Assembly: GCA_025353925.1 (NCBI GenBank)
Contig: JANXNV010000221.1
Span: 1 to 64,000 of the forward strand
Direction of reading: 5' to 3'
Length of the DNA stretch: 64,000 bases
Source: Armatimonadota bacterium
GTDB taxonomy: Bacteria; Armatimonadota; Armatimonadia; Armatimonadales; Capsulimonadaceae
Shown here: positions 6,286 to 48,356 of the stretch, piece by piece
How the letters are laid out: each line of letters starts with the position of its first letter
Numbering within the stretch: the first letter of the stretch is position 1
Notes under the pieces: model-generated
What the model was told of the DNA's origin: nothing
Seen by the model: the letters and a program-made list of their open reading frames with translations, nothing else
The model's database searches: none
Position numbers and translations under genes: made by a program

Positions 6286-6364
6286 AGAATTATGATTTAG
6301 CTAACGGTGAGTTATATAGCCGAAGGCGGCTACTATGAATCCAGTCGTCGAAAGGACGCTTCCT

Positions 6365-7198: not shown

Positions 7199-7253
7199 TG
7201 GAGGTCAGCTCAGACGAATGATAAAGCATTGTCTGAATGTACAAGGGGATACT

Positions 7254-8027: not shown

Positions 8028-8033
8028 TGCAGT

Positions 8034-15261: not shown

Positions 15262-15498
15262 TTAAGAACAGGTGACCTTAGGGTTGTTTGGATCGCTACA
15301 GTCACACGTGTTACCCTCATGGGGGCAATTTTTCGTTGTCGACTTTCCAGTCGAATTGCAGGTGCAGGTCACGGTCGTGCTGAGCACCGTGTTGTGCCCA
15401 TCGATGACTGTCTGCGTCAGATGGATGCCACGGTGAGTGCTCTCGTCGATTTCCACGATGAGCCTCATGTCGTTCCCCAGTTTGTACTCGTGCTTCAT
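15262..15498 (-). CDS. small Cys-rich protein (78 aa)
   Basis: MKHEYKLGNDMRLIVEIDESTHRGIHLTQTVIDGHNTVLSTTVTCTCNSTGKSTTKNCPHEGNTCDCSDPNNPKVTCS; SD AGAGGAGG before ATG. Confidence 0.55.
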   Translation of the reverse strand: MKHEYKLGNDMRLIVEIDESTHRGIHLTQTVIDGHNTVLSTTVTCTCNSTGKSTTKNCPHEGNTCDCSDPNNPKVTCS

Positions 15499-15836
15499 AT
15501 TGCCGCCTCCTCTGAAGATGTGGTCTTGCGGGTATTGCAGGTCGTAGTGGTATCCCGACCAGGCTGATTCAGGGTGCGGGTGATGACGTAGGTAAGACTG
15601 ACGGGTGAGGCACACGGAGTCTTGGCTATATGTGACTCTGAGCCTTCTTCAGGTTACCTCACGGATTCTCTAACGATTCATAACATAGAATTTAATTGTA
15701 GACCACAAATACGGCGAGAAAGAGGGGAGGAAAGAGAAAACAAGAATAACTCTCTGGGTTCCATGACTTTACCTGATTCCAGTTTTGGATAGGCGGCGTA
15801 GGTACTCCGAATGTACCCAAATGGAACGGCGCGTAC

Positions 15837-15879
15837 GATCCAACCAATACGCTCCCCTTCGGAGCGTATTGGTTGGATC
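15837..15879. repeat. perfect 19-bp-stem hairpin
   Basis: GATCCAACCAATACGCTCC-CCTTC-GGAGCGTATTGGTTGGATC. Confidence 0.9.
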
Positions 15880-16134
15880 ATACACGAACTGGTACACCAA
15901 GCTGCCCTGCTCGCGGGCACGCCAGCCATCCGCCATGATCCCGTTGAGCGCGGTGAACGTGGCCGACGTACCATTGATCTCTCCTCGGCAATCGGAGTGC
16001 CCCCATCGTCTACAAAGTAGGTGGTAGCACCGCAAGCCTTCACCTGCAGCCTGAGTTGCGGGGTCGTCGAGATAACGGATGAGGCCGTTTCCCTCGCCCT
16101 GCAGGAATAAAAGATAAAGGGCGGCGTCTTAGAT

Positions 16135-16359
16135 ATGATAGAAGACGCAGACATCCTGCTCGAAGACGGATGCTACCACCTAGCATATCTCGGCTTCGAC
16201 CAAAGCGAGGGGGCTCCCGATGCCACACTTGAGGAAGCTACCCTTATCGTCGGCCAGATCGCACTGGAAACGCTTCGTCGGCATGGAGTCAAGGCGGAAT
16301 GGGACATAACCGTGGGGCGTCGCATTGGCATCGACCTCACCTGCAAAGACTTGGTTTAG
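16135..16359 (+). CDS. hypothetical 74-aa protein
   Basis: ORF MIEDADILLEDGCYHLAYLGFDQSEGAPDATLEEATLIVGQIALETLRRHGVKAEWD... Confidence 0.35.
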   Translation: MIEDADILLEDGCYHLAYLGFDQSEGAPDATLEEATLIVGQIALETLRRHGVKAEWDITVGRRIGIDLTCKDLV

Positions 16360-23442: not shown

Positions 23443-24630
23443 ATGATTCTCGACAAGCCACTGGACCAGATCACCGAAGCTGACCTTCAGGTTCTGAAAG
23501 ACAATGCTGTCTCCGAGGGCCGAACTCTGGATTACAAACTGGAACTTACAAAAAACAGCGACGACGCCAAAAAGGAGTTTTTGTTCGACGTTACGTCCTT
23601 CGCGAATGCGGCGGGCGGCTACATGATTTTCGGCATAGGTGAACAGAATGGTGTTCCGGTGGAGGTGACTGGGCTGACAGCGGCCAACCCTGATGCTGAA
23701 ATCCTGCGCTTGGTAAACATGATGCGCGACACCATTCAGCCAAGGCTACGTCCAGTTGGGACGCAGATTGTAAGACTGGCGAATGGTCATTGGTGCCTTG
23801 TGATGCACATTCCGCGGAGTTGGTCGCGGCCTCATGCAGTCCTTAACAAGAAATACTTGGTCTTTTACTCTCGCAACTCAGCGGGGAAATATCCTCTCGA
23901 CGTTCCCGAGGTTCGGGATGCCTTTTTGTCCGCGGGGAGCGAAGCTGAGAGAATTCGGAACTTCCGGGCTGCCCGTATTGGGGACATTGTTGCAGGTCAG
24001 ACCCCAGTTCCCGTTCCAGAAACAGCCAAAATCGTATTTCATCTTGTTCCTATTGGAGCATTCGGCGGCGATACTATTGATGCCAGCCAGCTTGATGGAT
24101 TGCAGCGCAGGATGCACGAAATGAACATCTGGGGTCCGTATAAGCGTCATAATTTTGACGGCTTGCTTTTCAGTACGTTGATGCACCCAGTGGCCCCTGG
24201 ACAAGTAGCCTTAAATTATGCCCAAGTATACCGGAACGGGATCATTGAGGCAGTTGACAGCTTCAACCTGAGTAACGGAGGCGGGCCGAGCGCCATCAAC
24301 GGGCCGTTTTTGGAGGATCGTCTCCTGCCAAAATTGCCACCTTTGCTTCAGGTGATAGAAGTGCTTGAAATCGAACCACCTGTACTACTGTTTGTCACCT
24401 TCCTGGGAGTGTCAGGTTGTACTATATCAGCAACCCCTGGACATTTCATAGACTACCAGCCTTATCCGATTGACCGCGACGCCCTACTGATGCCCGATGT
24501 ACTGATCGAAACGCTGGCCGACGACCCACGCCAGATTATGAAGCCTGTGTTTGACGTGCTGTGGAACTCAGGCGGAAAGTCCGGGTCGCCGAGCTACAAC
24601 GAACTGGGCGAATGGACTCGGCAACAGTAA
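23443..24630 (+). CDS. AlbA_2 (Schlafen-like) domain protein
   Basis: EGRTLDYKLELTKNSDDAKKEFLFDVTSFANAAGGYMIFGIGE; SD acaggagg. Confidence 0.8.
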   Translation: MILDKPLDQITEADLQVLKDNAVSEGRTLDYKLELTKNSDDAKKEFLFDVTSFANAAGGYMIFGIGEQNGVPVEVTGLTAANPDAEILRLVNMMRDTIQPRLRPVGTQIVRLANGHWCLVMHIPRSWSRPHAVLNKKYLVFYSRNSAGKYPLDVPEVRDAFLSAGSEAERIRNFRAARIGDIVAGQTPVPVPETAKIVFHLVPIGAFGGDTIDASQLDGLQRRMHEMNIWGPYKRHNFDGLLFSTLMHPVAPGQVALNYAQVYRNGIIEAVDSFNLSNGGGPSAINGPFLEDRLLPKLPPLLQVIEVLEIEPPVLLFVTFLGVSGCTISATPGHFIDYQPYPIDRDALLMPDVLIETLADDPRQIMKPVFDVLWNSGGKSGSPSYNELGEWTRQQ

Positions 24631-29941: not shown

Positions 29942-30115
29942 ATGGTACTCGTATTCACACGCCGCCAGGACCAGACCATCACCATCGGCAACCCGGACTC
30001 GGCCCGCCCGCCTATAGAGGTGACGATCATCGAAGTGCGCGGCGACCAGATGCGGCTGGGGCGTCGGCATCCAGGGACGTCCCCGTTCATCGGGAGGAAA
30101 TATATCTTCAGGTGA
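29942..30115 (+). CDS. csrA: CsrA-like RNA-binding regulator (57 aa)
   Basis: MVLVFTRRQDQTITIGNPDSARPPIEVTIIEVRGDQMRLGRRHPGTSPFIGRKYIFR; CsrA pattern MLVLTR..GE.I.IG...I.V..I.GDQVRLG; SD aaggag. Below the ORF-track length cutoff. Confidence 0.75.
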   Translation: MVLVFTRRQDQTITIGNPDSARPPIEVTIIEVRGDQMRLGRRHPGTSPFIGRKYIFR

Positions 30116-30470: not shown

Positions 30471-30728
30471 TGAGGTGGAAGAGATCAGTCAGTTTCTGGA
30501 CCGCAGTCCAACCATAGCTTCGTGCTGTCGCGCTCAGAGCGAGCGGAAATCCCGTCTTGTCTATTGGTTCGTCTGTTCCAACGACAACCGCAGTCTAAGA
30601 TTAGAGATGTTCTTACCTGCCTGTTGCTCCTCATTACTTCTCCGGTTTCAGAGCCACTGGCCTGAATCGGTCAAGTCGGCTTGACAGATACAACCCATCG
30701 GTGGGATAATGGGGCAGGAGAAGCCAAC

Positions 30729-30983
30729 ATGGGAGACCAGCAGGCGAGCGCCACCGCGCTCGAGGGCGACGATCTGGCCGCACGCCGCGAGGCGGCGAGG
30801 CTCATGGGTCAGGTCCGTACGGACGCGAAGGCGACGGCGGCGCGGGAGAACGGCAAACGCGGGGGCAGGCCGAAGGGCATCCCCATGAGCGACGAGACTC
30901 GCCGAAAGATCAGTGAGGCTAAGCGTGCCCGTGCCGTAGGCCAGGTCCCGCAGGCACACGCACGTATCGAGACCAACCCCTGA
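30729..30983 (+). CDS. hypothetical basic protein
   Basis: SD aggag + ATG; ...GKRGGRPKGIPMSDETRRKISEAKRARA. Confidence 0.45.
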   Translation: MGDQQASATALEGDDLAARREAARLMGQVRTDAKATAARENGKRGGRPKGIPMSDETRRKISEAKRARAVGQVPQAHARIETNP

Positions 30984-31095
30984 ACGCAGGCTCGCGCCGA
31001 GGAGAGGGACAGACCGGTTCCTCCCTCTTTTTTAACGCCGCGCTATCAAGCACAATTTTTTCCGACACACCGAATCGACTGAGTAATAACGACGA

Positions 31096-34000
31096 ATGAA
31101 AACCCTACGCCAAGCCTGTACGCCCCGCGCCACCGTCTTCGACAGCACCAAGCGCGACACGGTGCCCGACATCCTCGACCTCGCCAAGGGCAGAATTGAT
31201 CCCGCCGAGTTTTTCAGCGAGAACTACGCGACCCAGGGCATGAGGACCCTGCTTTCGGAGGCGTTCAAGCGACTCGATGGCGGCGCGCAGGCGCAGGGCA
31301 TCTTCCGCCTAAGTCAGTCAATGGGGGGCGGCAAGACGCACAACCTGATCGCGCTCGGCCTCCTGGCGCAGCACCCCGAGTGGCGCACACAGGTCATGGG
31401 GTCATTCTACACGCCGAAAGCCGCGCTCGGCCCCGTCCGCGTCGCTGCTTTTTCGGGACGGCAGACAGACGCCCCTTTTGGCGTCTGGGGCGAGATCGCG
31501 CGTCAACTCGGTAAGGAACAAGAATTCGCACCGTATTATACGCCGCTGGCTGCGCCAGGACAGGAAGCGTGGATCAGGCTGCTCGCGGGTGAGCCACTGG
31601 TGATCCTGCTGGACGAACTGCCGCCCTACTTCGCCTACGCGAGTACCCGCGAGATCGGGATGGGAACGCTCGCCGATGTCACCACGACGGCGCTGGCGAA
31701 TCTCATGGTCGCGGTCGGTGACAACAAGTTGGAAAACGTTGTTCTGGTAATGACGGACCTATCGGGCGCATCATACCAACAGGCGCAGAGCGCCATCCAG
31801 CAGATGATCGGGACGGCGCTTAACGACTTGGGCAACGAGGCGATCCGCCTATCCATGCCGATTGACCCCGTTCGGATCAACACCGACGAGTTCTACCACA
31901 TCCTGCGGACGCGGCTCTTCGACGGTCTGCCCGACGAGGCGGACATCACTGAAATCGCCCAGGGCTACGCGCAGGCTCTCAAGCACGCCAAGTTGATGGA
32001 CATCACGAGCGCCTCCCCCGAGCAGTTTGCCGCCGACATCGGGAGCAGTTATCCGTTCCACCCAGCGATCCGCGACCTGTACGCCCGCTTCAAGGAGAAT
32101 CAAGGATTCCAGCAGACACGCGCGCTCATCCGCATCATGCGGGTCATCGCCGCGCGGATGTGGGGCGGCTCCGAAGGCGGCAGGGGCAAGGCCGACACCG
32201 CGTACCTGATCGGCGCACATGACATTGACCTGACCGACGCCGAGATGGTCAGCGAAATCAAGCAGATCAACAGCAAACTGGAAACCGCCATCGCGCACGA
32301 CATCGAGACCACGGGCGGGAGCGCCGTCGCCCAGGTGCTCGACCGCGACGCCGCCGCACCCGATGCCGAAGACGTGAGCCGTCTGCTCTTCCTGTCCTCG
32401 CTAACGACCTCGATGAACCAACTGGTCGGCCTGAACCGCTCCGAAGTCGTCGCGTACCTGGCCGCGCCAGGCAGGGATGTGTCCCATCTGTCGAAGGACA
32501 CCATTGATCGACTTCAGACGAGCGCCTGGTACCTGCACGCCTCCCGCGACGGGCGGCTGTACTTTAAGGACACCCAGAACATCAACGCGAAGCTGGAGAC
32601 CTACACGCGCTCCATGCTCCGCGACAGCACGGAGAAGGAACTCCGCGCCCAACTCGACACCATTTTTGCGCCGAAGATGAAGGACTGCTACCAGCGGCTC
32701 CTGTGCCTGCCCGCCCTGGACGAGATACAACTCACACAGGACGTCGTTACCCTGGTCGTCTTCCGACCGTCTGAGGGGGCGCTGGCGACGATCCGTCAAT
32801 TCCAGGAGCAGACGACCTATAAGAACCGCGTCTGCTTCGTCACGGGCGACGCCCACACCTACGAGCGGGTACTGGACGCGGCCTCGCGCATCAAAGCCAT
32901 CACTGCGATCCTGGAAGAACTCCGCACCGAAGGCAGGCCCGACGGCGACCCGCAGGTGCAGGAGGCGCTGGCGATCCGCGATAACCTGATTTCAAAGCTC
33001 TACATGGCGGTCAAGTCCACGTTCCTGACGCTGTACTACCCTACAAAAGACGGGCTGACGAAGGCCGATATGGACTTCATCTACGACGCACACAAGTTCG
33101 AGGCCGAAGACCAAATCCGTCGTGTGCTGGCCGATGCCTACAAGTACACCAGCGACATCGGTGCGGACGGCTCGTTCCGCACTCGGGTGGAAAAGAAACT
33201 GTGGCCGCACGGACAGCAGGAGGCTCCATGGTCCCAGATTAAGGCCAACGCCGCCCAGGATGGCTCCTGGAATTGGCACTTGCCGAATGCGCTGGATCAA
33301 CTCAAAGCGATCCTCGTTCAGCGCGGCCAGTGGCACGAAGGCGAGGGGTATGTGGACAAAGGTCCGTTCCCCCAGCCGAAGACCAATGTGCTGGTGCAGC
33401 AGATCAGCCGCGACGACGTGACGGGCAAGGTGCGCCTGAAAGTGACTCCGATCCATGGGAATCGCGTGTACATGGAGACGGGCGGGGCACAGGCCACGAC
33501 CGCGTCCCGCATGGTCGAGGGCGACACGATTGAGGTAGACGGCTTGGACTACTCATTCGTCGCTGTGGACACCGAGAAGGTCCACGAGGCGGGGGCGGCA
33601 ACAACCTGGACGAACACCGTGACGATCAGGCACCGCTTCTTCCAGGACGGTGACCGAATGAAGTGTGAACTGAAGGCTGCGCCGCACGTCGCCCTCAAGT
33701 TCACGACCGACGGCTCTAACCCCACCGTGAACGGCGGCGCGTACAGCGAGCCGTTCACTGTCCCCAAAGGGGCGCGGTTCGTGCAGGCCGCTCCCGCCAG
33801 CGGCAAGGGCAAAACGGAGCGATTCGATGTGCCCGCCGAGCCTGAAAAGGTCGTCATTGACGCGGAAAAGTCGTACTTCTGGCTGCGGCCATTCCAGCGC
33901 GACGCCACGATGGAGACTTTCAATTTCCTGGGCCAGTGCCGCAAGTACAACGCCTACCTGGGCGGCGTTCATGTGACCATTGCCCGTGAGCGCCGCTGGG

Positions 34001-34212
34001 CGGAATTGGTTATGGACGCCGATTCGTATCACAGCGCCGATGATATGATGAGGGCCATCGAGACTCTTCAGGGGCTGCTGCCACAGGGATCGATCTCGCT
34101 CAAAGCGGAGGCGCTCAACGTGGATACGGGGCAGAACCTTTTGGACATCGTGGCCGAACTGAAGACGGAGATCAAGCAAGGCGAGGCCAAGATCGCTGAG
34201 CCGCGCAAATAA
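31096..34212 (+). CDS. DUF499-type ATPase of anti-phage-associated operon
   Basis: IFRLSQSMGGGKTHNLIALGLLA (Walker A), PLVILLDELPPYF (Walker B); gene context. Confidence 0.85.
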   Translation: MKTLRQACTPRATVFDSTKRDTVPDILDLAKGRIDPAEFFSENYATQGMRTLLSEAFKRLDGGAQAQGIFRLSQSMGGGKTHNLIALGLLAQHPEWRTQVMGSFYTPKAALGPVRVAAFSGRQTDAPFGVWGEIARQLGKEQEFAPYYTPLAAPGQEAWIRLLAGEPLVILLDELPPYFAYASTREIGMGTLADVTTTALANLMVAVGDNKLENVVLVMTDLSGASYQQAQSAIQQMIGTALNDLGNEAIRLSMPIDPVRINTDEFYHILRTRLFDGLPDEADITEIAQGYAQALKHAKLMDITSASPEQFAADIGSSYPFHPAIRDLYARFKENQGFQQTRALIRIMRVIAARMWGGSEGGRGKADTAYLIGAHDIDLTDAEMVSEIKQINSKLETAIAHDIETTGGSAVAQVLDRDAAAPDAEDVSRLLFLSSLTTSMNQLVGLNRSEVVAYLAAPGRDVSHLSKDTIDRLQTSAWYLHASRDGRLYFKDTQNINAKLETYTRSMLRDSTEKELRAQLDTIFAPKMKDCYQRLLCLPALDEIQLTQDVVTLVVFRPSEGALATIRQFQEQTTYKNRVCFVTGDAHTYERVLDAASRIKAITAILEELRTEGRPDGDPQVQEALAIRDNLISKLYMAVKSTFLTLYYPTKDGLTKADMDFIYDAHKFEAEDQIRRVLADAYKYTSDIGADGSFRTRVEKKLWPHGQQEAPWSQIKANAAQDGSWNWHLPNALDQLKAILVQRGQWHEGEGYVDKGPFPQPKTNVLVQQISRDDVTGKVRLKVTPIHGNRVYMETGGAQATTASRMVEGDTIEVDGLDYSFVAVDTEKVHEAGAATTWTNTVTIRHRFFQDGDRMKCELKAAPHVALKFTTDGSNPTVNGGAYSEPFTVPKGARFVQAAPASGKGKTERFDVPAEPEKVVIDAEKSYFWLRPFQRDATMETFNFLGQCRKYNAYLGGVHVTIARERRWAELVMDADSYHSADDMMRAIETLQGLLPQGSISLKAEALNVDTGQNLLDIVAELKTEIKQGEAKIAEPRK

Positions 34213-34216
34213 CCCG

Positions 34217-35020
34217 ATGGCAACTGAACGAACAAAAACTGAACCGCCCAAAACAGAGACCATCGGGTTCGGCTTCGAGCCGTCCAAGACGGCCTACCAT
34301 TTTGTCGTCACCATCCCGCGCGGTCAGGACGGCTCAGTGGAGGTCAGCGAGCATTTCGTTTATGGCGAAGACTACGAAGACGCCGCCGCACGCGCGCGTC
34401 TTTCCGACGAGGTGCCTTCGTTCCCAATCCGCCCTCCTCAGCCGAAGGTCGTGGTTTCCCTGCACCAATGGCGGTATGTCGCCGACGATGTGCGGACGGA
34501 GTTCAACCGCACCCTTCGCACGGCGGGTTACAAGCCCAGTGCCTGGAAGATCGGACCGAACTGTCTGTCGGCGCATCTGGGCAAGGAACTGACCCTGCTC
34601 CTGTGGGCCGTCGAGGACATTGACCCGTCATTGATCCCGAACGCGGTCGCGAACTGGTCAGGGCTGGCCCCCGAAGAACGCTGGTGGCTCTACACCACTA
34701 TCAACGCCGCGACGGGGCACGTCACGGAGGGGCGCGGGCGCGGCTGGCGTCAGGCCATTGGCATCGCCTTTCGGGACAACCCCGTCACCCCGCGCTACTT
34801 CTCCCAGAATGGGGCCGCACCAAGCGCCAAACCGTCCATCAACGGGAGCGGCGGCAGGAACGGGACAAAGGCCAATGGTACCGGGCACAACGGCACCAAG
34901 AATGGCAAGGGCCAGAAGACCAGTGACGACGATCCCGACCGCCAACTCTCGCTCCTCGTGCTGGACGAACTGCCGACAACCGTCGGGCCGCCACCGGAAG
35001 AATTAGAAACGAACGCATGA
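34217..35020 (+). CDS. DUF3780-type protein
   Basis: GFGFEPSKTAYHFVVTIPRG...LSAHLGKELTLLLWAVEDIDPSLIPNAVANWSGLAPEERWWLYTTINAATG; ATGA overlap with next gene. Confidence 0.75.
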   Translation: MATERTKTEPPKTETIGFGFEPSKTAYHFVVTIPRGQDGSVEVSEHFVYGEDYEDAAARARLSDEVPSFPIRPPQPKVVVSLHQWRYVADDVRTEFNRTLRTAGYKPSAWKIGPNCLSAHLGKELTLLLWAVEDIDPSLIPNAVANWSGLAPEERWWLYTTINAATGHVTEGRGRGWRQAIGIAFRDNPVTPRYFSQNGAAPSAKPSINGSGGRNGTKANGTGHNGTKNGKGQKTSDDDPDRQLSLLVLDELPTTVGPPPEELETNA

Positions 35021-38000
35021 ATCAGACCAAGACTTTTATCGAAACCCAGTTTCCCGTTTCCAAACTCAGCAAGGAGAGTTACAAAGAGCGCAAAGCCAAT
35101 CACGGACAGACTCTGACAGGTCTGGGCAAGTGGTGGGGGCGGAAGCCGCTGATCCTGGTCCGCGCGGCCATTCTTGGCCTGCTCTTGCCCGCCACGGAAG
35201 ACCCCCAGAAAGATCGTGAGACGTTTCTGCGTATCCTGACCATGGATGAGGAAGGACTGTGGGCGCGCAAGACCAAAACGCTGTCCGCCGCCGAAGCCTA
35301 CGAACTTCTGACACCGACGGAGCAGACCGACTGGTTTGAGGTTCGTGGCGATAAGATCGGCTTCAAGCGCGGTCTGAGGCCCGAAGATAAAGAAAGCATC
35401 CAGCGGCGTGCTTTCGACCGCCTGAACTACGATGTGAAGCTGGAATACTGCGCTCGGCCCGAGGAAATCGGCGGGCCGAGCGTCGAGTCCTGGGCAGTGA
35501 TCAACACGCACCTCGGGACGAAGGCAAACACCCTGGCCGAACTGGTCCAGGAACTCGGCCAGCGACAGTTCGGCCACACGCCGCGCGTCGGCGACGCTTT
35601 TTGTGGCGGCGGGAGCATCCCGTTCGAGGCAGCGCGGATTGGCTGCGAGGCGTTCGGCTCTGACCTGTCCCCTGTCGCGGCCCTGCTCACCTGGTCTGCC
35701 CTGAACATCGTTGGCGGCGGTCCTGAAGTCGCCACCGATGTCCGCCACGCCCTGGAAGTTGTTTACGACGCAGTCAAGCAGCAGATAGAAGCGTGGGGCA
35801 TTGAGCGTAATGCCGTCGGCTGGGTCGCCGACGCCTACCTGTATTGCCACGAGGTGTACGACAATGGTTGGATGCTACCGCTCGCCCCTTCCTGGGTGAT
35901 TGGGGAGCGCACCCGCACCGTCGCCCGCCTCATCCCGCGCACCGAGTCGAAGACCTTCCGCATCGCCATCGAGCAAGGCGTGGATGATCGCATGATGGCG
36001 TCCGCGAAGGAAGAAGGCACTTGGGCGAACGGCGTCAAGTGTCCTGTGGACGCGGACGGCAATCTCATCCCGCCAACCCAGCGCCGCGCCACAAGCGCGG
36101 ACAGTCTGCGCGGACGCGGCGGGCTGCGCCGCTGGGAGAATGACGACCTCGTCCCGCGCACCGAGGACGTGTTCCAGGAACGCCTGTACTGCATTCGCTG
36201 GCGTCTGCCCAAACTCAGCGCCCTGCTCTGGGAAGAGCAGCGGGCCGATACAGACCGCCCATTGGATACAGTGCGCCGCGAGATTGAAGGCTTGATGGCA
36301 TTCCTCACCCCCGTTGAGCAGGAACGCCTGGCGGCTCTGCGGGGCCGTGATTGGGCGGCGGAGGATTGCGACGCTCAGACGAAGTTCATCGACCTGGAAC
36401 GCCTGCGAGCACTGGGGCCGAAAGGCACAACCCGCGAGGCGGTACTGGCGGCCAGAGAATGCTGGGATCAGGCTCGGGAGATCGTTCGTCAACGCGAGGC
36501 CGCCGTCGCCGTGCTGTCGGGACAAGTTCCCGAGACGCGATACGCCGCACCCGAAGCCGAAGATGTGGAGCGGGAAAAACTCGTCTTGTCCCGCCTGCGG
36601 GGGAAGTTTGCCGACTGGCAGGCGAAGGGTTACATCCCATCCATGCCAATCGAAGGTGGATATAATCAAGACCAGCCAATACGTGAACGCGGCTACACCC
36701 ATTGGCATCACCTATTCAATCCGCGTCAACTGCTGACACTGGGCCTGTTCGCTGAACTGTGCGACCAGATGCAGTTGAAGGGTACAGCAGCGGTGGGATG
36801 TATGCTTGTTCTTGGGAAACTTACCAACTACAACTCGCGGTTGAGCCTCTGGCATCCTGCTGCCGCAAATGAGAACACTGAACGTGTCTTCACAAATCAA
36901 TCACTGAATACACTGGCGAACTATGCTGCTCGCACGGTCGCCTCGTTACCTTCCATTATATTCTCCAGAGAGAAACAGGCGTTCATCAACGGTGCGGGGC
37001 AAATTGAAGCCAACGACGCGCGGATAATGAGCCACGAATGCGATTTGTGGATCACCGACCCTGCTTATGCCGACGCTATCAACTATGATGAACTTTCTGA
37101 GTTTTTTCTGTCTTGGTACTCGAAAAGATTGCACACTTTGTTCCCCGAATGGTACACGGATAGCAAGCGTGCACTTTCCGTTCGCGGCTCCGATGAACCA
37201 TTCCGCTTGGCGATGGTCGAGTGCTACCGTAACTTTGCCCAGCATATGCCCGACAATGGCCTCCAAGTCGTCATGTTTACACACACCGACGCTGAGGTAT
37301 GGGCCGACCTCGCCTTGATTCTTTGGGCGGCGGGCCTGCGCGTTACGACAGCTTGGACCATTGCCACAGAAACCAGTGTCTCAGGGTTGAAGCAGGGCAA
37401 CTACGTCCAAGGAACGGTCCTGCTCGTCCTCCGCAAGCAGACGGGAGATGAGTGGGGCGACTTATCCGACATCTTTCCCGAGGTCACACGCGAGGTGGAG
37501 TGCCAGATGGAGTCCATGACCGCCCTGGACGACCGCGACGATCCCAACTTCAGCGACTCGGATTACCAACTCGCCGCCTACGCCGCCGCCCTGCGCGTCA
37601 TCACAGGTTACAAGACTATCGCCGAGATCAACGTGGATCGCGAAATAGGGCGCGTGCGCGGCAAGGGAGAGAAGTCGCCCCTGGCCGACGTGATCGAGAA
37701 GGCCGTCAAGATCGCCTCCGACTATCTGGTCCCGCGAAGCGTGGATAGGCTGGTGTGGCGCACACTGACCGCCGATGAACGGCTCTACGTCAAGGGGATC
37801 GAGGTTGAGTCTCACGGCGACTACCGAAGCGGGGTGTACATGGAATTCGCCCGTGGCTACGGCGTCCGTGACTACCGCGTCCTGCTCGGCTCCTCCGAGG
37901 CCAACAAGACCCGCCTGAAAACTCCCTCCGAGTTCAAAGGCGCGGGCCTGTCGGGGGATGGCTTTGCTCAGACCAACTTGCGCCAAATCCTGTTCGCCGT

Positions 38001-38205
38001 CTACAAGACGGGGGAGACGGGTGACCCCAGCGTCGGGCGCGACTGGCTTCTCCGCGAGGTCAAGGGCTATTGGGACCGCCGCACGGTCATCGTGGAGATG
38101 CTGCGCTACCTCGCCCACGCGCCCAGCCCCGCCATGACCCATTGGGCGAAGGACCAGGAAGCCGCCGAACTTCTGGCGGGCCTGATCGCCAACGACACAC
38201 CGTAG
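35017..38205 (+). CDS. DUF1156-type DNA methyltransferase
   Basis: Start FIETQFPVSKLSKESYKERKANHGQTLTGLGKWWGRKPL; DAFCGGGSIPFEAARIGCEAFGSDLSPVA; DLWITDPAYADAINYDELSEFFLSWY. Confidence 0.88.
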   Translation: MNQTKTFIETQFPVSKLSKESYKERKANHGQTLTGLGKWWGRKPLILVRAAILGLLLPATEDPQKDRETFLRILTMDEEGLWARKTKTLSAAEAYELLTPTEQTDWFEVRGDKIGFKRGLRPEDKESIQRRAFDRLNYDVKLEYCARPEEIGGPSVESWAVINTHLGTKANTLAELVQELGQRQFGHTPRVGDAFCGGGSIPFEAARIGCEAFGSDLSPVAALLTWSALNIVGGGPEVATDVRHALEVVYDAVKQQIEAWGIERNAVGWVADAYLYCHEVYDNGWMLPLAPSWVIGERTRTVARLIPRTESKTFRIAIEQGVDDRMMASAKEEGTWANGVKCPVDADGNLIPPTQRRATSADSLRGRGGLRRWENDDLVPRTEDVFQERLYCIRWRLPKLSALLWEEQRADTDRPLDTVRREIEGLMAFLTPVEQERLAALRGRDWAAEDCDAQTKFIDLERLRALGPKGTTREAVLAARECWDQAREIVRQREAAVAVLSGQVPETRYAAPEAEDVEREKLVLSRLRGKFADWQAKGYIPSMPIEGGYNQDQPIRERGYTHWHHLFNPRQLLTLGLFAELCDQMQLKGTAAVGCMLVLGKLTNYNSRLSLWHPAAANENTERVFTNQSLNTLANYAARTVASLPSIIFSREKQAFINGAGQIEANDARIMSHECDLWITDPAYADAINYDELSEFFLSWYSKRLHTLFPEWYTDSKRALSVRGSDEPFRLAMVECYRNFAQHMPDNGLQVVMFTHTDAEVWADLALILWAAGLRVTTAWTIATETSVSGLKQGNYVQGTVLLVLRKQTGDEWGDLSDIFPEVTREVECQMESMTALDDRDDPNFSDSDYQLAAYAAALRVITGYKTIAEINVDREIGRVRGKGEKSPLADVIEKAVKIASDYLVPRSVDRLVWRTLTADERLYVKGIEVESHGDYRSGVYMEFARGYGVRDYRVLLGSSEANKTRLKTPSEFKGAGLSGDGFAQTNLRQILFAVYKTGETGDPSVGRDWLLREVKGYWDRRTVIVEMLRYLAHAPSPAMTHWAKDQEAAELLAGLIANDTP

Positions 38206-38251
38206 CGGTTCAAGGCCGCCCGTTTCCAACGGACGGGAGGCGAGCATACTC

Positions 38252-39337
38252 ATGGACGTTTTGCATTTAACTGGGACCGGTTTGACGATCTTGCTTCTTT
38301 TGGTCGCCGCCGTGATCGCCGTCCGTGTTTACCGATCACGGTCCGAGGCCCTGAAATTATCGTTGCCCGTCCTGAGCGGTTCAGCCGCCGCCAGGGGGAC
38401 GCGGGTCGCCATCAACCCGTTGCAGGGGGTGTCTTTTCAGGAGTCCCTTCAGCCAGAAGTGTTCGCAGAGGCGACCCGTCAAAACGTGATCGGTGCCATG
38501 CTCGTGAGCTATGGTGCCGACACCGCCAGTACCGGGTTGCAGATCGCGGCGAGCCACACGGGGAGCCTCCTGGTCAGTTTCAAGGATCAAAACTATGAGA
38601 TGGTGCAGTCCACCAATGGCGTTTACAAGGCGATGACGCGCGCCGCCAACGGCGACTTTCATGAGATCGCCAACGTTGACAAGTTTGGCACCTGGCTGAA
38701 CAATGTCTCGCACGCCTCCGCCGCCGTGGTCGCTGTCGCGCACCTGATCAGCAACGCTGATATGTCCAGGAGGCTCGGCGAGGTTCAGAAGAACACCGAT
38801 AAGTTACTGGACTACCGCCAGATTGATACTCTTGCAAAGATTCAGACCACCTACGAGTCGCTCCGTGAGGAGATCGGCAAAGTGGAGCCGCGACGAGACG
38901 CCATTGCTCGTTACCGCGAGACCTTTCGCGAGAACCGTCATCGCTTGTTTCGCGAGGCGGAGAATGACATTGGTCAAATGCCATCCATGCTCAGATTCAA
39001 TCCCGCACTGGTGAGAAAGGCCGAGCAACTGGTCAAGACGCCACAGTTTAATAAGCGCAAGCGCGACCTGAGCGAAGTGATGACCAAGTTACAGACAGCT
39101 TCGTATTGCTTTCAGATGGAGACGTTGGCGGCTTCCTTTTGTGGTTCCGAGCAGGACCAGCAACATCTACTCCATGAGGCTGCAGCTTCATGGAGCACGC
39201 TTGCCTCCAAGGTTACTCACCTGGAAGACGAGATTCGCGAGCACGATCAATGTGGTAAGCAGTTGCAGGAGACGGCTAACATCATACGGCAGAATATGAC
39301 ACGCCGCCCCCACAGGCCGCAAAGAGATGGGTTCTGA
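38252..39337 (+). CDS. unknown membrane-anchored coiled-coil protein inside the defence operon
   Basis: N-terminal TM (LTILLLLVAAVIAVRVY); stop/start TGATG overlap with the helicase gene. Confidence 0.65.
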   Translation: MDVLHLTGTGLTILLLLVAAVIAVRVYRSRSEALKLSLPVLSGSAAARGTRVAINPLQGVSFQESLQPEVFAEATRQNVIGAMLVSYGADTASTGLQIAASHTGSLLVSFKDQNYEMVQSTNGVYKAMTRAANGDFHEIANVDKFGTWLNNVSHASAAVVAVAHLISNADMSRRLGEVQKNTDKLLDYRQIDTLAKIQTTYESLREEIGKVEPRRDAIARYRETFRENRHRLFREAENDIGQMPSMLRFNPALVRKAEQLVKTPQFNKRKRDLSEVMTKLQTASYCFQMETLAASFCGSEQDQQHLLHEAAASWSTLASKVTHLEDEIREHDQCGKQLQETANIIRQNMTRRPHRPQRDGF

Positions 39338-42021
39338 TGCGGCGCTATTCCTCACGACGAGCACCTCTGGACGGCTTTCTGGCCGACGCCCTTCTGGGGG
39401 CAACCGCCTACGACCGCATCGCGGGCTATTTCTCCTCGTCCGTGCTGGAACTGGCGGGAGAGGCCATCGAACAGGTTGAGGGCCAGGTACGGGTCATCTG
39501 CAACTCCCAACTCGATCCCACAGATGTGTCCACCGCCCGCGCCGCCCACCTCGCCCAGCGCCGCGAGTGGGCAGGGTCTCTGCCCGAGGACGTGCCGCCC
39601 CCGATGCAGAGACGGCTCGCCCGCCTGTACGACTTCCTGAAGAGCGGCAAACTCCGCGTTAGGGTCCTCCCCGACACCCGCTTCGGCCTGATTCACGGCA
39701 AGGCGGGCGTCATCACGCGGGAGAACGGGGTGCGCTTCTCCTTCCTTGGGAGCGCCAACGAGTCCCGTAGCGCCTGGACCCGCAACTACGAGATCGTCTG
39801 GGTGGACGAGAGCGCCGAGGGCACGACCTGGGTGCAGGAAGAGTTTGACGCCCTCTGGTGCGACCCCTACGCCGTTGACCTCGCCGATGCTGTAGTCGAG
39901 GACGTCGGGCGGCTCTCGCGGCGGGTGGTATGGGCGACTGTGGGCGACTGGCGGGACGCCGTCGCCCCCGACCCTGCTGCCCCCGCAATCGAACTGCCCG
40001 TGTACCGCCGAGAGAACGGGCTTTGGGCGCACCAGAAGGCGTTCGTCCAGATGGCATTCGAGGCGCATCAGGGTGGCGGGGCACGCTTCGTGCTTGCCGA
40101 TCAGGTCGGCCTGGGCAAGACGGTCCAGCTTGGTCTTGCTGCAAAACTCATGGCACTGGTCGGCGAGAAACCTATCCTGATCCTGGCCCCGCGCCCGCTA
40201 ATGGAGCAGTGGCAGGGCGAACTATGGTCGCTCCTCGCGTTCCCTACGGCCCGATGGAACGGGCGGCAGTGGGTAGATGAGAATGGCGTCGTCTACCCCG
40301 ACAGCGGCCCCGAAGGTCTGCGCCGCTGCCCTCGCCGTGCGGGGATCGTCTCGACCGGACTGATCAAGCGCAAGGGCGACGGGATCGCCGTCCTGGAAGG
40401 GATGGAGTTTGAGTGCGTGATCCTGGACGAAGCGCACCACGCCAGGCGAACGAACCTCGGCCCCAACCATCGGGGCGAACCCGCCAAGCCGACCAACCTG
40501 CTCCGCTTCCTCCACACCGTAGCCCGCCGCACTCGGAGTATCCTCCTGGCGACGGCGACGCCCGTCCAACTCGACCCGATTGAAGCCTGGGATATGCTCT
40601 CGGTACTGGCCGAGGGGAACGACTCTGTGTTGGGCGACCAGTTCAGCCTGTGGCGGCGGGACCCGTGGCGAGCGATTGACCTGGTGACAGGCCGTGAGGT
40701 TCTGGGGGTGGACGCGGGTCCGACCACGCTCTGGGAGTGGGTACGCAATCCTCTCCCGCCCTCCCGTGAGGGCATTGACTTCGCGGTCCTACGCCGCAGC
40801 CTGGACGTGCCCGAGGACGCCCAGGTCGTCGTTGGGAGCCGCTACCGCGATCTGCGTCCCGCCGACCAGCGCCGCCTTAACGGGCTTCAGACGGGCCTCT
40901 TCCAGAGCCACAACCCATTCATCCGCCACATCGTCCGCCGCACCCGTGCGTATCTGGAAGACACCCTCGACCCGACCACGGGGGAGTCCTACCTGAAGCC
41001 CGTCCGGGTGCGTCTCCACGGCGAAGGTGACAGCGAGGCGATCATTCTGCCCGCGTTTTTGGAACGCGCTTACCAGTTCGCGGAGGATTTCTGCCGCGAG
41101 ATCGGCCAGCGCCCTAACCTAAGTTCAGGCTTCCTGAAGACGATGCTCCTGCGGCGGGTGGGGAGTTCGATTGAGGCGGGCCGCGTCACTGCGGAGCGGA
41201 TGCTGGGGGCGGTCGGCGAGGACGAGGAGGAGGGTGAGGACGACGATGTGCGCGAATCTGCCCTGTACCCTCTGACCCCTGGAGAACGGGCGCATCTGGA
41301 AGCCTTCGCTGCCGCCCTGCGGACCAATACGGAGGACGACCCGAAGTTCGCGGCTATTTTGGAGAAACTCGCCTCGGGCTGGCGGGAGGCGGGGTGCATC
41401 CTGTTCAGCCAGTATTACGACTCCGCGTCCTGGCTGGCACGTGCCCTATCGGGCCACTTCCCTAATGAGACGGTCGCGCTCTACACGGGCGCGTCACGCT
41501 CGGGCCTCCTGCGGGGCGGACAGTTCACCCCCATCAGTCGCGATGAGATCAAGCGCCAGGTGCAGGCAGGGGAAGTGCGGCTCATCTGCGGCACGGACGC
41601 CGCCAGCGAGGGACTGAACTTGCAGCGGCTGGGGTGCCTGATCAACTTGGACCTCCCCTGGAACCCGACCCGCCTCGAACAGCGCAAGGGCCGCATCCAA
41701 CGGATCGGGCAGACGCGGGAAATCGTGGACATCTACAATATGCGCTACCGCGGGTCGGTGGAAGACCGCGTCCACCAACTCCTGTCGTCCCGCCTTCAGA
41801 ACATCGCCGATATGTTCGGCCAACTCCCCGACACCTTGGAAGACGTATGGGTGAGCGTGGCCCTTGCCGATGACGCACGTGCCCGCCGCGTCATAGACGC
41901 CGTGCCCGCGTCCCATCCGTTTGAAATTCGGTACGACCGCATTGAGAACATCCCATGGGAACAGTGCGCCGAGGTCCTGACGGCGACGAGTCAGTTGGAG
42001 ACCCTGCGGAGACCCTGGTAA
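39337..42021 (+). CDS. PLD-like nuclease domain + SNF2-type helicase
   Basis: HGKAGVITRENGVRFSFLGSANESRSAW (HxK...N), ADQVGLGKTVQLGLAAKL, VILDEAHHARR, GTDAASEGLNLQ, NLDLPWNPTRLEQRKGRIQRIGQ. Confidence 0.9.
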   Translation: MRRYSSRRAPLDGFLADALLGATAYDRIAGYFSSSVLELAGEAIEQVEGQVRVICNSQLDPTDVSTARAAHLAQRREWAGSLPEDVPPPMQRRLARLYDFLKSGKLRVRVLPDTRFGLIHGKAGVITRENGVRFSFLGSANESRSAWTRNYEIVWVDESAEGTTWVQEEFDALWCDPYAVDLADAVVEDVGRLSRRVVWATVGDWRDAVAPDPAAPAIELPVYRRENGLWAHQKAFVQMAFEAHQGGGARFVLADQVGLGKTVQLGLAAKLMALVGEKPILILAPRPLMEQWQGELWSLLAFPTARWNGRQWVDENGVVYPDSGPEGLRRCPRRAGIVSTGLIKRKGDGIAVLEGMEFECVILDEAHHARRTNLGPNHRGEPAKPTNLLRFLHTVARRTRSILLATATPVQLDPIEAWDMLSVLAEGNDSVLGDQFSLWRRDPWRAIDLVTGREVLGVDAGPTTLWEWVRNPLPPSREGIDFAVLRRSLDVPEDAQVVVGSRYRDLRPADQRRLNGLQTGLFQSHNPFIRHIVRRTRAYLEDTLDPTTGESYLKPVRVRLHGEGDSEAIILPAFLERAYQFAEDFCREIGQRPNLSSGFLKTMLLRRVGSSIEAGRVTAERMLGAVGEDEEEGEDDDVRESALYPLTPGERAHLEAFAAALRTNTEDDPKFAAILEKLASGWREAGCILFSQYYDSASWLARALSGHFPNETVALYTGASRSGLLRGGQFTPISRDEIKRQVQAGEVRLICGTDAASEGLNLQRLGCLINLDLPWNPTRLEQRKGRIQRIGQTREIVDIYNMRYRGSVEDRVHQLLSSRLQNIADMFGQLPDTLEDVWVSVALADDARARRVIDAVPASHPFEIRYDRIENIPWEQCAEVLTATSQLETLRRPW

Positions 42022-42195: not shown

Positions 42196-42747
42196 TCAGA
42201 AATTCGTCATCGCGAACTGTCCGTGGTGTCGGCGGGCGGCCTCATCATAGGCACGGGCCGCCTCCACCGGACAGGTGTATCGGCCAAGACGCAGAGTCAC
42301 ACCATTGACCTTGATCTCCGCCGTGTACCTGCCGCTCCGTGGGTCCCGCGAGACGCCCTTGTACCCACTCGTATTGGTTATCGGGCGCGGGCAGTTCCAT
42401 GCGTTTTCCGTCCGAGAGGCGACCCGGAGGTTCGCCCGTCGGTTGTCCAAGCCATCCAGACTCCGGTGGTCCACGAGCACCTCCGGGTCGGTGACGCCCA
42501 TGACCAGACGGTGCATCCGCAGGCTCTGCTGTCGGTCCCGTCCGTCCCGCACCTGTGTGATCGCATACGTCCGCCAGCGGAAAGTCGCGGCACACCAGCG
42601 GTGCGGAGCCACCAGCTGTAGGTCAGCAACGTCGATGACGGCGTACTCACCTTGGCTCAGTTCGATTCGGATGGTATCGCCGATGATCTCGAACCAATTC
42701 CGCGTGACGATGTGGGGAAGGTTGGGGTGGACATAGCGGAAGTTCAT
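42196..42747 (-). CDS. HNH endonuclease with AP2-like domain
   Basis: LRMHRLVMG...VLVDHRSLDGLDNRRANLRVASRTENAWN + GYKGVSRDPRSGRYTAEIKVNGVTLRLGRYTCPVEAARAYDEAA. Confidence 0.85.
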   Translation of the reverse strand: MNFRYVHPNLPHIVTRNWFEIIGDTIRIELSQGEYAVIDVADLQLVAPHRWCAATFRWRTYAITQVRDGRDRQQSLRMHRLVMGVTDPEVLVDHRSLDGLDNRRANLRVASRTENAWNCPRPITNTSGYKGVSRDPRSGRYTAEIKVNGVTLRLGRYTCPVEAARAYDEAARRHHGQFAMTNF

Positions 42748-43553
42748 GCGTGGTTCTCCTGGAACGCGTCTACACGGAAGTCGATTCCCGTGCTCTCTCG
42801 GGACTCGCAGCCGTCCCGGAGCGGGCACCATTGGCAATGCTCGCCCGGTTCTTGGGGGTGGGCGTCGCCGAGCAACACCCGCTGGAGCCTGTCCATCACC
42901 GCCGCGTGCTGGCCCCGGACGTCCGCGACGGTGATTGTCTCCCTGTCCACACGACCGCCCTCGTCCACCCAGTCCAACTCAGACAAATAGTTGTCGTATC
43001 CGGGGAATCCCAACTTCAGCAGCCAGAGGTTTGTGAAAGCGGCTTCCAGGTCCGTCTTGGGCCGCCCCAGCTTGTAGTCGCGGCCCACCACCGTCACCGG
43101 ACCGGTCCCGGACGCGTCGGCACGCACGATCACCCGATCCAGGCGACCCGACAGAACAAAAAACGGCTGCCCGTCACGAGTGATCGGCTTCTCTACCCAA
43201 TGCTCGACGGATAATGTGTTCACGGCGTCATCAAGATCGTCGTTGGCGATATAACCTTCAAGCATCCGCAAGCATCGCAAACGATCTTCGTCCCGCGCCG
43301 CTTCGGAGTCGTACCGCTGTCCGCGAAACGCCTGGCGGCTCCACGCTTCCAGGTGGGTGACGTTCGGGGGCGTACCGTTGCGCGGATTATAGACCTTGCC
43401 CGCCAACTCATGCCAGGCGATCCCGAAGCTGGCGTTCGTGATCGCGGGTCGGGGCGGCCACTGCTTGAGCACGCGTAGGGTGTGAAACCGGTAATTACAA
43501 TGGGTATCGACGAGGCTAGACGGAGAAATTCGAGCAGTAAGATTAGTTGACAC
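42744..43553 (-). CDS. PD-(D/E)XK (RecB/Cas4-like) nuclease with candidate Fe-S cysteines
   Basis: HCNYRFHTLR ... LSGRLDRV ... VVGRDYKLGR ... HCQWCPLRDGC; 4-nt overlap with HNH gene. Confidence 0.8.
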   Translation of the reverse strand: MSTNLTARISPSSLVDTHCNYRFHTLRVLKQWPPRPAITNASFGIAWHELAGKVYNPRNGTPPNVTHLEAWSRQAFRGQRYDSEAARDEDRLRCLRMLEGYIANDDLDDAVNTLSVEHWVEKPITRDGQPFFVLSGRLDRVIVRADASGTGPVTVVGRDYKLGRPKTDLEAAFTNLWLLKLGFPGYDNYLSELDWVDEGGRVDRETITVADVRGQHAAVMDRLQRVLLGDAHPQEPGEHCQWCPLRDGCESRESTGIDFRVDAFQENHA

Positions 43554-45775: not shown

Positions 45776-46993
45776 TTAAGAGTGCGTTCGCTGGCGACGC
45801 GGCATCCGAGGCGGAAGCTGCGGCGCGGGTTCCGGTGGCGGAGAGAGCGCAGGCTCTGCCTGCGCTGGCTTTGACATAACTTGCTCAAATACGTCAGTCT
45901 GCTTGTGCGTTTTTCGGACATCCTCCGAAACCGTGTGGCCGTAAATTTGATGCGTTGTTACGACACTCTTGTGGCCCGCCATTTCTCTCGCGTGTTCGGG
46001 GTTGACCTGTAGCGCCGCAGATATGGCCCTGTGGCGCAGTGAATGCAAAGTGAACCTATCGGGTAGGTCCATTCCTTGCGAGCGACCCCAGGCAAAGTAC
46101 CGCTGCAACTGGCGAAGCATACTTGGCCCATCGACCTGTTCGCCCCAACTGTTTTTGAACAGCCAGTCGCCTTTTGGCTTAGGCTTACGCGTCCCGCCTG
46201 CACCAAGCACTGGCTTTGGCCCACGCTTGGTCGGGCGCACGGCAGAAAGTGCTAAGCGGGCAGCGTCCATGTCCATAATGGCAGCCGCGACCCGGTCGCT
46301 AAGGGGCAATCCACGCGTCTTTCTGGACTTCGTGTTTTTGGCGGCAAACTTAACGACTCTTTGATCATAGTCGATGTCCGAAGTTCGCAGTTTACACATT
46401 TCGCCGCGCCGTGCCCCAATCGACAGAGCCATCGCAAACCATGCTTTGGCCCGCGTCTCAAGCACTTTGGCTTCTTCTCGTAACCAAGTATCAGCGATCT
46501 CGGGGTGGAGTTCGGGGTCCCAATGGGCGCTGATGCACTTAATGCCGAGTTCGAGTTTGTCAAGGCCCCAGACGGGAATGTCAGCATCATCGTCGCTCCG
46601 GTGCAGTTTCAGAGCATAATAGTGGTCGCGGCGCAAATAACGGCGCATATAAGCATCCCCGCACCATGTTTTCAGCCTAATCGAGAACGTTCGCGTAGAT
46701 GAGTCAGCGTTTTCGAGGCCCGTGTTAGGATTGCGACGACCCTTGTAAAGCGTGATGACATCATTCAGCACGTCAAGCGTGATCTGACCAGTTGTCGTTG
46801 CACCCGCAACCTCAAAAAGGGGGGCGGCTGTTCGCGAAAAAATCTTTCGGTTTGCCACCGACGCGGGGCGCTGCCCGCCGCGTTCGGCCTCCTGCACCCA
46901 CTTCGCGAACGCGTCTGGAATCGGTACATCGTAAATTACATCTGCCGTGTCCACTATTATTACACCTCCGCTCGCTTGTGTTCTGAAATACAT
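45776..46993 (-). CDS. tyrosine-type site-specific integrase
   Basis: IGARRGEMCKLRTSDID ... HSLRHRAISAALQVNPEHAREMAGHKSVVTTHQIYGH (R..HxxR..H..Y). Start at MYFRTQ because the longer ORF runs through a terminator hairpin and a tRNA-like sequence. Confidence 0.88.
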   Translation of the reverse strand: MYFRTQASGGVIIVDTADVIYDVPIPDAFAKWVQEAERGGQRPASVANRKIFSRTAAPLFEVAGATTTGQITLDVLNDVITLYKGRRNPNTGLENADSSTRTFSIRLKTWCGDAYMRRYLRRDHYYALKLHRSDDDADIPVWGLDKLELGIKCISAHWDPELHPEIADTWLREEAKVLETRAKAWFAMALSIGARRGEMCKLRTSDIDYDQRVVKFAAKNTKSRKTRGLPLSDRVAAAIMDMDAARLALSAVRPTKRGPKPVLGAGGTRKPKPKGDWLFKNSWGEQVDGPSMLRQLQRYFAWGRSQGMDLPDRFTLHSLRHRAISAALQVNPEHAREMAGHKSVVTTHQIYGHTVSEDVRKTHKQTDVFEQVMSKPAQAEPALSPPPEPAPQLPPRMPRRQRTHS

Positions 46994-47032
46994 CTCGTGT
47001 TTACAAACACATAATACCCCAAAATCGCCAAA

Positions 47033-47067
47033 AAAAGCGTCTTCTGAATTTTTCAGAAGACGCTTTT
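47033..47067 (-). terminator. 16-bp-stem Rho-independent terminator
   Basis: AAAAGCGTCTTCTGAA-TTT-TTCAGAAGACGCTTTT. Confidence 0.8.
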
Positions 47068-47085
47068 CGCCTTGAAATCTTATGT

Positions 47086-47148
47086 TGCGCCCGGTCCACG
47101 ACCTCTTCTTTACCAAAGAAGTGCTCTACCACTGAGCTACTTGGGCGC
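47086..47148 (-). tRNA. tRNA-Thr(GGT)-like sequence lacking a normal T-arm (truncated or att-site remnant)
   Basis: GCGCCCAAGTAGCTCAGTGGTAGAGCACTTCTTTGGTAAAGAAGAGGTCGTGGACCGGGCGCA: normal D-arm and anticodon arm, GCGCCC/GGGCGC acceptor pairing, no TTCRANY T-loop. Confidence 0.65.
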
Positions 47149-47210: not shown

Positions 47211-48356
47211 TCACGCCTCTGTGATCTCCCCGTGTTCATTGATGACGATGTGCGGTGTCGGCCGAATAGGCACTTTCAGGAAATAGCGTGTGCCTTTCAA
47301 TTCGCCTTGCCTAGTCAGTGCTTCTTTCTCGGTGAGATCAGCCAGGTCGCGTGTGGCCGTGGCATGAGGTGCGCCGGTAATCGCCATGTATTTTGCGGCA
47401 GTTAAGCCGCCCAGGAAGCCACCTGGTCCAGCACGGAACATTCGAAGAAGAGCTTTTTCCTGACGCTCGTTCAATCGCCCACGCAGAAGGTCCAGCATTC
47501 TGACCTTATCCTGAATAAACGCCACCTCGCTCAGTGTGCGTGTCTGTGCTTCGAGAACGGTGCCGGCAAACCAGAGAAGCCATGCCGTGATCTCATTCGA
47601 CTTGTTTGCCGCTTCCAGGGCATCGTAGTACTGCTTTCGGCGAATAAGGATAGTCGGCGAGAGCGCAAGAAGCAGCGGCTGTCCGATTGCCTGCCGCAGG
47701 GCCTTTTCCGCCAGTGCCCGGGAGATGCGGCCATTCCCATCTTCGAAGGGGTGGACAGACGCAAAGTAAAGATGGGCAATCCCGGCACGTGCCAAGGCAG
47801 ACATTGTTTTTTCCGAAGCATTGAACCACTCAACAAACTGTGTCATCTCGGCGGGAACGAGTGCAGAGGGAGGGGCTTCGAAGTAGACTTTCGGTTTATC
47901 GGCTCGCCCGGAGACTACCTGCATTGGCTCTATGTGAGTTCGGTATTGCCCGATGCTGGACAAGTCGCGCCGACCATTCATGAGCATTTTGTGCCAATCA
48001 AACAATGTCTCCTCTCTCAAAAGGCCCGCGTAATCGTTCAAAGCATAGACCGTCATCTCGGCGATGCCATACTCGCGCGACTCGACATTCCGATTGTCAA
48101 AGGTTAGACCAAGCCGCTGCCTGATCGACGATTGAACGCTCAGGCGGTCAAGAGTCTCCCCCTCGATTTCCGATGTCGTGAGGGCTTCGGAAAGCAGCAG
48201 CTCGACCTCGATCTGTTTGCGATCCCCGTCTTCAAGAGGGTCAAGCGAACCCAGAAGCAAGCCCCCGCCCAGCAGAAACCTTTGCTCTGCGAGCCGCAGG
48301 CGATCACTGTTCCAGACAAAGTCTCGCCAATTTTGTTTCTGCCAGTTCCAGAGCAT
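47211..48356 (-). CDS. Fic family protein with DUF4172-like N-terminus
   Basis: HPFEDGNGRISRALAEKAL (Fic motif); inhibitory-helix-like TSEIEGE. Confidence 0.92.
   Translation of the reverse strand: MLWNWQKQNWRDFVWNSDRLRLAEQRFLLGGGLLLGSLDPLEDGDRKQIEVELLLSEALTTSEIEGETLDRLSVQSSIRQRLGLTFDNRNVESREYGIAEMTVYALNDYAGLLREETLFDWHKMLMNGRRDLSSIGQYRTHIEPMQVVSGRADKPKVYFEAPPSALVPAEMTQFVEWFNASEKTMSALARAGIAHLYFASVHPFEDGNGRISRALAEKALRQAIGQPLLLALSPTILIRRKQYYDALEAANKSNEITAWLLWFAGTVLEAQTRTLSEVAFIQDKVRMLDLLRGRLNERQEKALLRMFRAGPGGFLGGLTAAKYMAITGAPHATATRDLADLTEKEALTRQGELKGTRYFLKVPIRPTPHIVINEHGEITEA

Follow-up and report, generated by a model that had tools for sequence, protein, structure and literature searches.

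Of the systems already described, the closest to the locus reported here was classified only in 2026, when Rakesh & Krishnan (NAR 2026; PMC12839542) named a four-protein core set found in 1120 taxa the Type-2 BREX-related (BR) system and proposed for it a restriction-modification-like mode of action. As defined there, the set comprises a DUF499 protein with Fn3-like domains (in 53%), a DUF3780 protein that is standalone in 98%, a DUF1156 methyltransferase (MTase), and an HKD-helicase without a Tudor domain; in about half of Type-2 BR systems, an Fn3-like beta-sandwich precedes a C-terminal RRM (PMC12839542). The Hma system, which derives from PADLOC 2021 (PMC8565338), is Type-1 BR in the same scheme, homologous yet of a different type (PMC12839542).

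The window that we analyzed is a 64,000-nucleotide stretch of an Armatimonadota contig (JANXNV010000221.1, assembly GCA_025353925.1, forward strand). A first-pass annotation had placed five collinear genes at positions 31096-42021, and an open reading frame (ORF) check found every one of them at the claimed coordinates and strand. All on the + strand, they encode a DUF499 (BrxC-like) AAA+ ATPase (31096..34212; 1038 aa), a DUF3780 protein (34217..35020; 267 aa), a DUF1156-type DNA methyltransferase (35017..38205; 1062 aa), a helical ORFan with a single transmembrane (TM) segment that we call g4 (38252..39337; 361 aa), and an HKD/PLD nuclease fused to an SNF2/SF2 helicase (39337..42021; 894 aa). 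When the junctions were read from the sequence, the 4-nt ATGA overlap between the DUF3780 and MTase genes and the 1-nt TGATG overlap between g4 and the helicase gene were as the annotation had them; the gap between the ATPase and DUF3780 genes is 4 nt, not the 5 nt given, and the 46-nt gap between the MTase gene and g4, which contains a Shine-Dalgarno-like GGAGG run, had gone unmentioned. GC3 is 0.70 to 0.81 across all five genes, so that g4 looks like a coding gene. The description as a five-gene operon holds in that five genes are present; since no comparable relative has a homolog of g4, the unit is a system of four genes with a single lineage-specific gene inserted.

The annotation had also taken DUF499, DUF3780, DUF1156 methylase, and PLD-SNF2 helicase to be a known anti-phage-associated set, which is indeed curated as NCBIfam NF042961-NF042964 and PADLOC PDLC02189-02193. 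The PADLOC check that it suggested was run, and all four core proteins matched dedicated models (E-values: DUF499, 1.5e-206; DUF3780, 8.7e-35; DUF1156_MTase, 1.1e-259; PLD_Helicase, 5.5e-227). Two of the four NCBIfam "antiphage" models exceeded their equivalog cut-off (DUF1156 and PLD), the DUF499 and DUF3780 matches lying below it, and Pfam matched DUF499, DUF3780, DUF1156, PLDc_2, SNF2, and Helicase_C in the core. None of the four core genes is missing or broken; they are collinear and encode family-typical proteins in which the ATPase, helicase, and HKD residues are conserved. Their order recurs in the loci from viral contigs, GTDB, and plasmids that we compared. Because this is exactly the set defined as Type-2 BR (PMC12839542), the core of the locus is not new. 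Judging by sequence, the locus is likely to be a complete anti-phage system of Type-2 BR that carries an accessory gene in addition.

With the described Type-2 BR systems, the locus shares the four core proteins and their order, the Fn3-like domain of DUF499, and a helicase without Tudor. It differs in having an ORFan membrane gene between the MTase and helicase genes, an MTase with motif IV DPAY and inserts of ~100 residues, and a DUF3780 protein with a low-complexity tail. What turns an otherwise known core into a variant is g4 together with the motif IV clade; the TerY-P and SoFic genes in its island further distinguish this copy. The comparison with Hma-type systems in the first-pass annotation gives way to one with the sister type, Type-2 BR, which is nearest: the ATPase matches HmaC at 1.1e-43 versus 1.5e-206 for DUF499 (PADLOC). 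The MTase and helicase are likewise homologous to HmaB (2e-26) and HmaA (3.2e-32), all of these scores being far under the Type-2 model scores for the locus proteins. Hma is a three-gene helicase-methylase-ATPase set that has no DUF3780, which this locus does have, and the Hma helicase carries a C-terminal REase, in place of which Pfam finds an N-terminal HKD nuclease here. BREX type 3 shares common ancestry of the ATPase, MTase, and BrxHII helicase (PMC12839542). The hallmarks of BREX are PglZ, a BrxC-type ATPase (DUF6079), BrxA, and BrxB; Pfam, NCBIfam, and PADLOC gave no match to PglZ, BrxA, or BrxB in any of the five proteins, and the presumed effector here is the HKD nuclease. The SNF2-like helicase of the locus also resembles DrmD of DISARM (PADLOC), but this match is partial and far below cut-off, and no DrmA, DrmB, or DrmMI/MII genes are present. 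A PLD domain is present in DrmC of DISARM.

Core proteins and a proposed mode of action

The DUF499 ATPase (Pfam DUF499, 3.1e-19) has a Walker A motif, SMGGGKTH, at residues 75-82 and a Walker B region, LVILLDELPPY, and the residues of both are invariant in an alignment of 75 relatives. An Fn3/chitobiase-C-like beta-sandwich lies at residues 859-902 (CHB_HEX_C_1, Fn3_assoc), so that the Fn3-like feature of Type-2 BR is present, with one sandwich matched. The DUF3780 protein (Pfam PF12635, 4.8e-42) stands alone in the core locus and ends in a low-complexity tail (residues ~190-267). Its motifs GKEL..LLW.E, PEERWWLY, and GWR are near-invariant in 75 sequences, from which AlphaFold2 modeled an alpha+beta fold (pLDDT 88, pTM 0.81). 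A fold search with this model returned no structural neighbor in the PDB (no E-value under 0.9) or among viral models (none under 0.08), in agreement with the published statement that DUF3780 has no known homolog. An apparent DUF3780 fusion in one related locus (L071, 1120-aa ORF) is probably an overlapping-frame artifact of high-GC DNA and was set aside.

The helicase scores 1186.1 bits against NCBIfam NF042964, over the cut-off. Pfam places PLDc_2 at residues 45-174, SNF2 (SNF2-rel_dom) at 232-428, and Helicase_C at 687-791 and finds no other domain; the HKD nuclease is thus N-terminal to SNF2, and both Tudor and a C-terminal REase are absent. The motifs H120-x-K122, GLGKT (258-262), DEAH (364-367), and QRKGRIQRIGQ (782-792) consist of residues that are invariant in at least 95% of 51 relatives. 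The position of the canonical HKD Asp holds T in 30 of these 51 and is variable in the remainder; this is a family-wide trait, and loss of the Asp as a defect of the window copy was therefore dropped as a concern. Because the position varies across the family, we regard the HKD nuclease activity as putative.

From these protein families we infer the steps of Type-2 BR action, namely, marking, sensing, loading, and cutting. The DUF1156 N6-methyltransferase would mark host DNA. DUF3780 and the DUF499 ATPase, whose C-terminal beta-sandwich/RRM region would be the sensor, would assemble on DNA and interrogate it. Where the DNA is unmarked or bears the wrong mark, the HKD-SNF2 protein would be loaded by the complex and would translocate and cut.

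The inserted gene g4 and the cargo slots of related loci

One strong TM segment spans residues ~6-24 of g4 (mean hydropathy up to 2.5), and Arg/Lys residues immediately past it predict a cytoplasmic C terminus. Beyond the TM segment, the protein is mostly helical with a weak heptad periodicity (p 0.01-0.04). A single-sequence AlphaFold2 model was helical with a pLDDT of 44, too poor for a fold search. The product of g4 is most likely a membrane-anchored cytoplasmic helical protein, which would be a lineage-specific cargo between MTase and helicase, translationally coupled to the helicase start.

No family match above cut-off was found for g4 in Pfam, PADLOC, or NCBIfam, and no homolog among 201 relatives, in plasmids or phages (tblastn), among the ORFs of related loci (phmmer), or in pattern scans of IMG/VR and GTDB, in which exact 8-mers reach close relatives only. 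The best match in 28 Type-2 BR-bearing genomes had an E-value of 0.04, and these short matches of 24-34% were judged to be noise. Candidate matches in the PDB (a CoA ligase) were at chance level, and those in PHROGs were of a weak coiled-coil type and not homologs. In the nearest relatives (L025, L032, L112, L136, and L138), the MTase and helicase genes abut with no insert, which places the arrival of g4 in the lineage of the window.

Among 62 related loci with both genes, the MTase and helicase genes are adjacent in 34, 22 have this slot filled with cargo, and 6 have an unexplained gap, a slot being counted as filled when same-strand cargo covers at least half of the gap. The helicase tree requires a minimum of 12 changes in the state of the slot. 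Its cargo includes Schlafen-type AlbA_2 proteins (seven, of which six were assigned by a Pfam test and L088 was read from sequence), ABC+TOPRIM-like pairs (L028:7143-8968 and L035:13608-15433), an ABC+RloB pair (L094:16771-18737), a 607/553-aa pair on a Deinococcus plasmid (L113:11885-15345), and HNH, DUF3800, ATP-grasp, and WD40 proteins. A second slot, at the DUF3780-MTase junction, holds VapBC, MNT/HEPN-like pairs, and ABC triads. Of all the cargo that we saw in the two slots, none but g4 has an N-terminal membrane anchor. In one Chloroflexota BR locus (L033), DUF499 and DUF3780 are separated by a zinc-ribbon/TM-like protein (8250-9968), and MTase and helicase by a WD40 protein (14334-16277).

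The putative role of g4 is read from its position and its one TM helix. The protein might tether the complex at the inner membrane, the site of phage DNA entry, or, by analogy with what is thought of same-slot cargo in relatives, might act as a backup abortive effector. A rival to the tether would make g4 a membrane-damaging abortive-infection effector that oligomerizes and depolarizes the inner membrane once the complex is blocked. In relatives, this slot holds proteins that are known or presumed to be suicide effectors (Schlafen, ABC+TOPRIM-like, and ABC+RloB), which speaks for such a role, as does the predicted pairing of a single TM helix and a helical domain in the cytoplasm. However, g4 has no homology to known pores or abortive effectors, no regulator or antitoxin partner was seen, and an N-terminal TM segment followed by a large soluble region fits a tether or scaffold equally well; we hold this role to be possible, if on the unlikely side. 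It is quite improbable that g4 is a random nonfunctional ORF or a passenger from a recombination event. Its lack of homologs and its absence from relatives would fit this origin, but 361 uninterrupted codons, a coding-like GC3 of 0.70, the upstream GGAGG, the TGATG coupling to the helicase start, and the N-terminal TM segment argue against it.

Motif IV of the methyltransferase

The MTase matches Pfam DUF1156 and scores 1264.6 bits against NCBIfam NF042963, above the cut-off. Its motif I region, DAFCGGGS, is retained, and its motif IV reads DPAY (residues 681-684) rather than DPPY, which makes methylation by this enzyme, and with it the step of marking self DNA, uncertain. Across 59 MTases, motif IV is DPPY in 50, DPGY in 5, DPAY in the window protein, and unreadable in 3. 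With the motif masked, the six DPAY/DPGY enzymes group with one other, L045, which keeps DPPY, in a supported clade (99% SH-aLRT); among its seven members is the enzyme of a Thermomicrobium roseum plasmid (L112). The window MTase also carries inserts at residues 340-348, 396-445, and 459-501, located between motifs I and IV and missing in more than 80% of relatives (54 aligned). The DPAY/DPGY change gives the impression of a trait that the clade has maintained, more than of decay.

Alternatively, the MTases of this clade could be catalytically altered or inactive, the system either reading the marks of other enzymes or discriminating self in some other, type IV-like way. The grouping of DPAY and the five DPGY enzymes in one supported clade, against DPPY in all 50 other readable MTases, is consistent with such a change, and the DUF3780 partners have been proposed as readers of modified bases (PMC12839542). 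Against it, the motif I region, D681, P682, and Y684 are retained, the second Pro of motif IV may be dispensable, and L045 is still DPPY; moreover, the change is common to several separate genomes and one plasmid, which suggests constraint over decay. We consider an altered enzyme unlikely.

Phage-borne fragments and genomic setting

The locus offers two handles, the conserved atypical motif IV clade and a cargo slot with the membrane protein g4; of more weight than either, and the most interesting lead from the locus, are fragments of Type-2 BR systems carried by phages. A search of a phage collection with the window DUF3780 picked out a single record, that of the temperate Proteus phage vB_PvuS_Pm34 (KY420199.1, complete), in which two intact ORFs, gp5 and gp4, occupy L111:11331-12476. 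A block of 1126 bp, running from DUF499 codon 851 to DUF3780 codon 169, is 92% identical to a complete Escherichia coli Type-2 BR operon (UMNK88, L141:8637-19921); the DUF3780 of the E. coli-type operon has a match in 17 of 5426 E. coli genomes. gp5 corresponds to the C-terminal 175 aa of DUF499 and is 93% identical to the E. coli protein, while gp4 comprises the DUF3780 domain but lacks the DUF4357 domain found at the C terminus of its E. coli counterpart, and it has its stop codon inside a 10-pair terminator-like hairpin. No MTase domain model matched in the Pm34 record, and no MTase or helicase was present in the stretches read.

Lone minimal DUF3780 genes also occur on IMG/VR tailed-phage contigs (L017:8555-9031, L018:931-1407, and L019:9773-10246), which carry Sak4, exonuclease, DnaB, replication initiation, tape-measure, or ParB/MTase genes. 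Each of the three lies behind a small RHH-like ORF; we considered these ORFs as possible DUF499 tails and rejected them as unrelated to DUF499. In one Chloroflexota metagenome-assembled genome, a BR operon (L133, G532:C118) and a lone DUF3780 gene (L137:696-1160, G532:C172) lie on separate contigs.

That a temperate phage keeps only the DUF499 C terminus and DUF3780, intact and closed by a hairpin, points to these two regions as the sensor or the assembly interface. The simplest functional reading of the phage fragments is counter-defense by subunit mimicry, with the fragments as candidate decoys of the sensor pair, that is, the DUF499 C-terminal region plus DUF3780, the two elements said to define the type. 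The alternative is chance capture. For both gp4 and gp5, pN/pS relative to E. coli is 0.07, though the selection behind this value may predate capture, in bacteria. For counter-defense by subunit mimicry, Pm34 gp4 and gp5 provide a direct route to testing. A further proposal would make the locus a membrane-anchored variant of Type-2 BR, with g4 linking the inner membrane and the restriction complex, and would have phages copy the sensor pair and carry it alone as dominant-negative decoys; this seems to us doubtful.

The surroundings of the operon bear out the defense island claimed in the first-pass annotation. A TerY-P triad lies at 6335-10337 (TerY, 1.9e-102; STK_OB, 9.6e-85; PP2C, 4.1e-26), a large serine recombinase (Resolvase, Recombinase, and zinc ribbon) upstream of the operon at 19607-21670, and a Schlafen-domain protein at 23443-24630; on the other side are a PD-(D/E)XK nuclease (42744-43553) and a tyrosine integrase (45776-47116) adjoined by a SoFic-type Fic protein (47211-48356; PADLOC SoFic, 5.5e-41). 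A search for att repeats flanking the island found none. Type-2 BR is rare in the host phylum (3 of 292 genomes), and searches with DUF499 and DUF3780 found a single copy in the genome of the window. In trees, the window system is nearest to Chloroflexota systems, and this position together with the rarity in the host phylum suggests horizontal acquisition. It is highly improbable that the operon is instead a non-defense module for DNA processing or epigenetic regulation on a mobile element, for although the literature that we searched held no direct phage assay of a Type-2 BR system and combinations of helicase, MTase, and AAA+ proteins are known in repair too, the distribution is patchy, related systems ride on plasmids and viral contigs, TerY-P, SoFic, and other defense genes are co-located, the cargo is of anti-phage type, and phages carry sensor fragments of Type-2 BR.

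Just before the operon, a small NUMOD3-like ORF (30729..30983, + strand; 84 aa) has a near-consensus sigma70-like promoter match at 30681 (region scan), and a terminator-like hairpin at 31004-31023 separates it from the ATPase gene, directly upstream of which the promoter scan found no promoter-like site; promoter and terminator counts around the operon start show no excess over shuffles. Given its own promoter-like site and the hairpin ahead of the operon, the ORF is probably a separate unit and probably lies outside the Type-2 BR system; it is also a possible regulator. Shortly upstream of the operon is a CsrA-like protein of 57 aa (29942-30115; Pfam CsrA, 2e-07). Farther away, at 1208-5783 of the window, a DnaE-type polymerase III alpha gene sits beside one for an ImuB-like Y-family polymerase, forming a mutasome-like pair.
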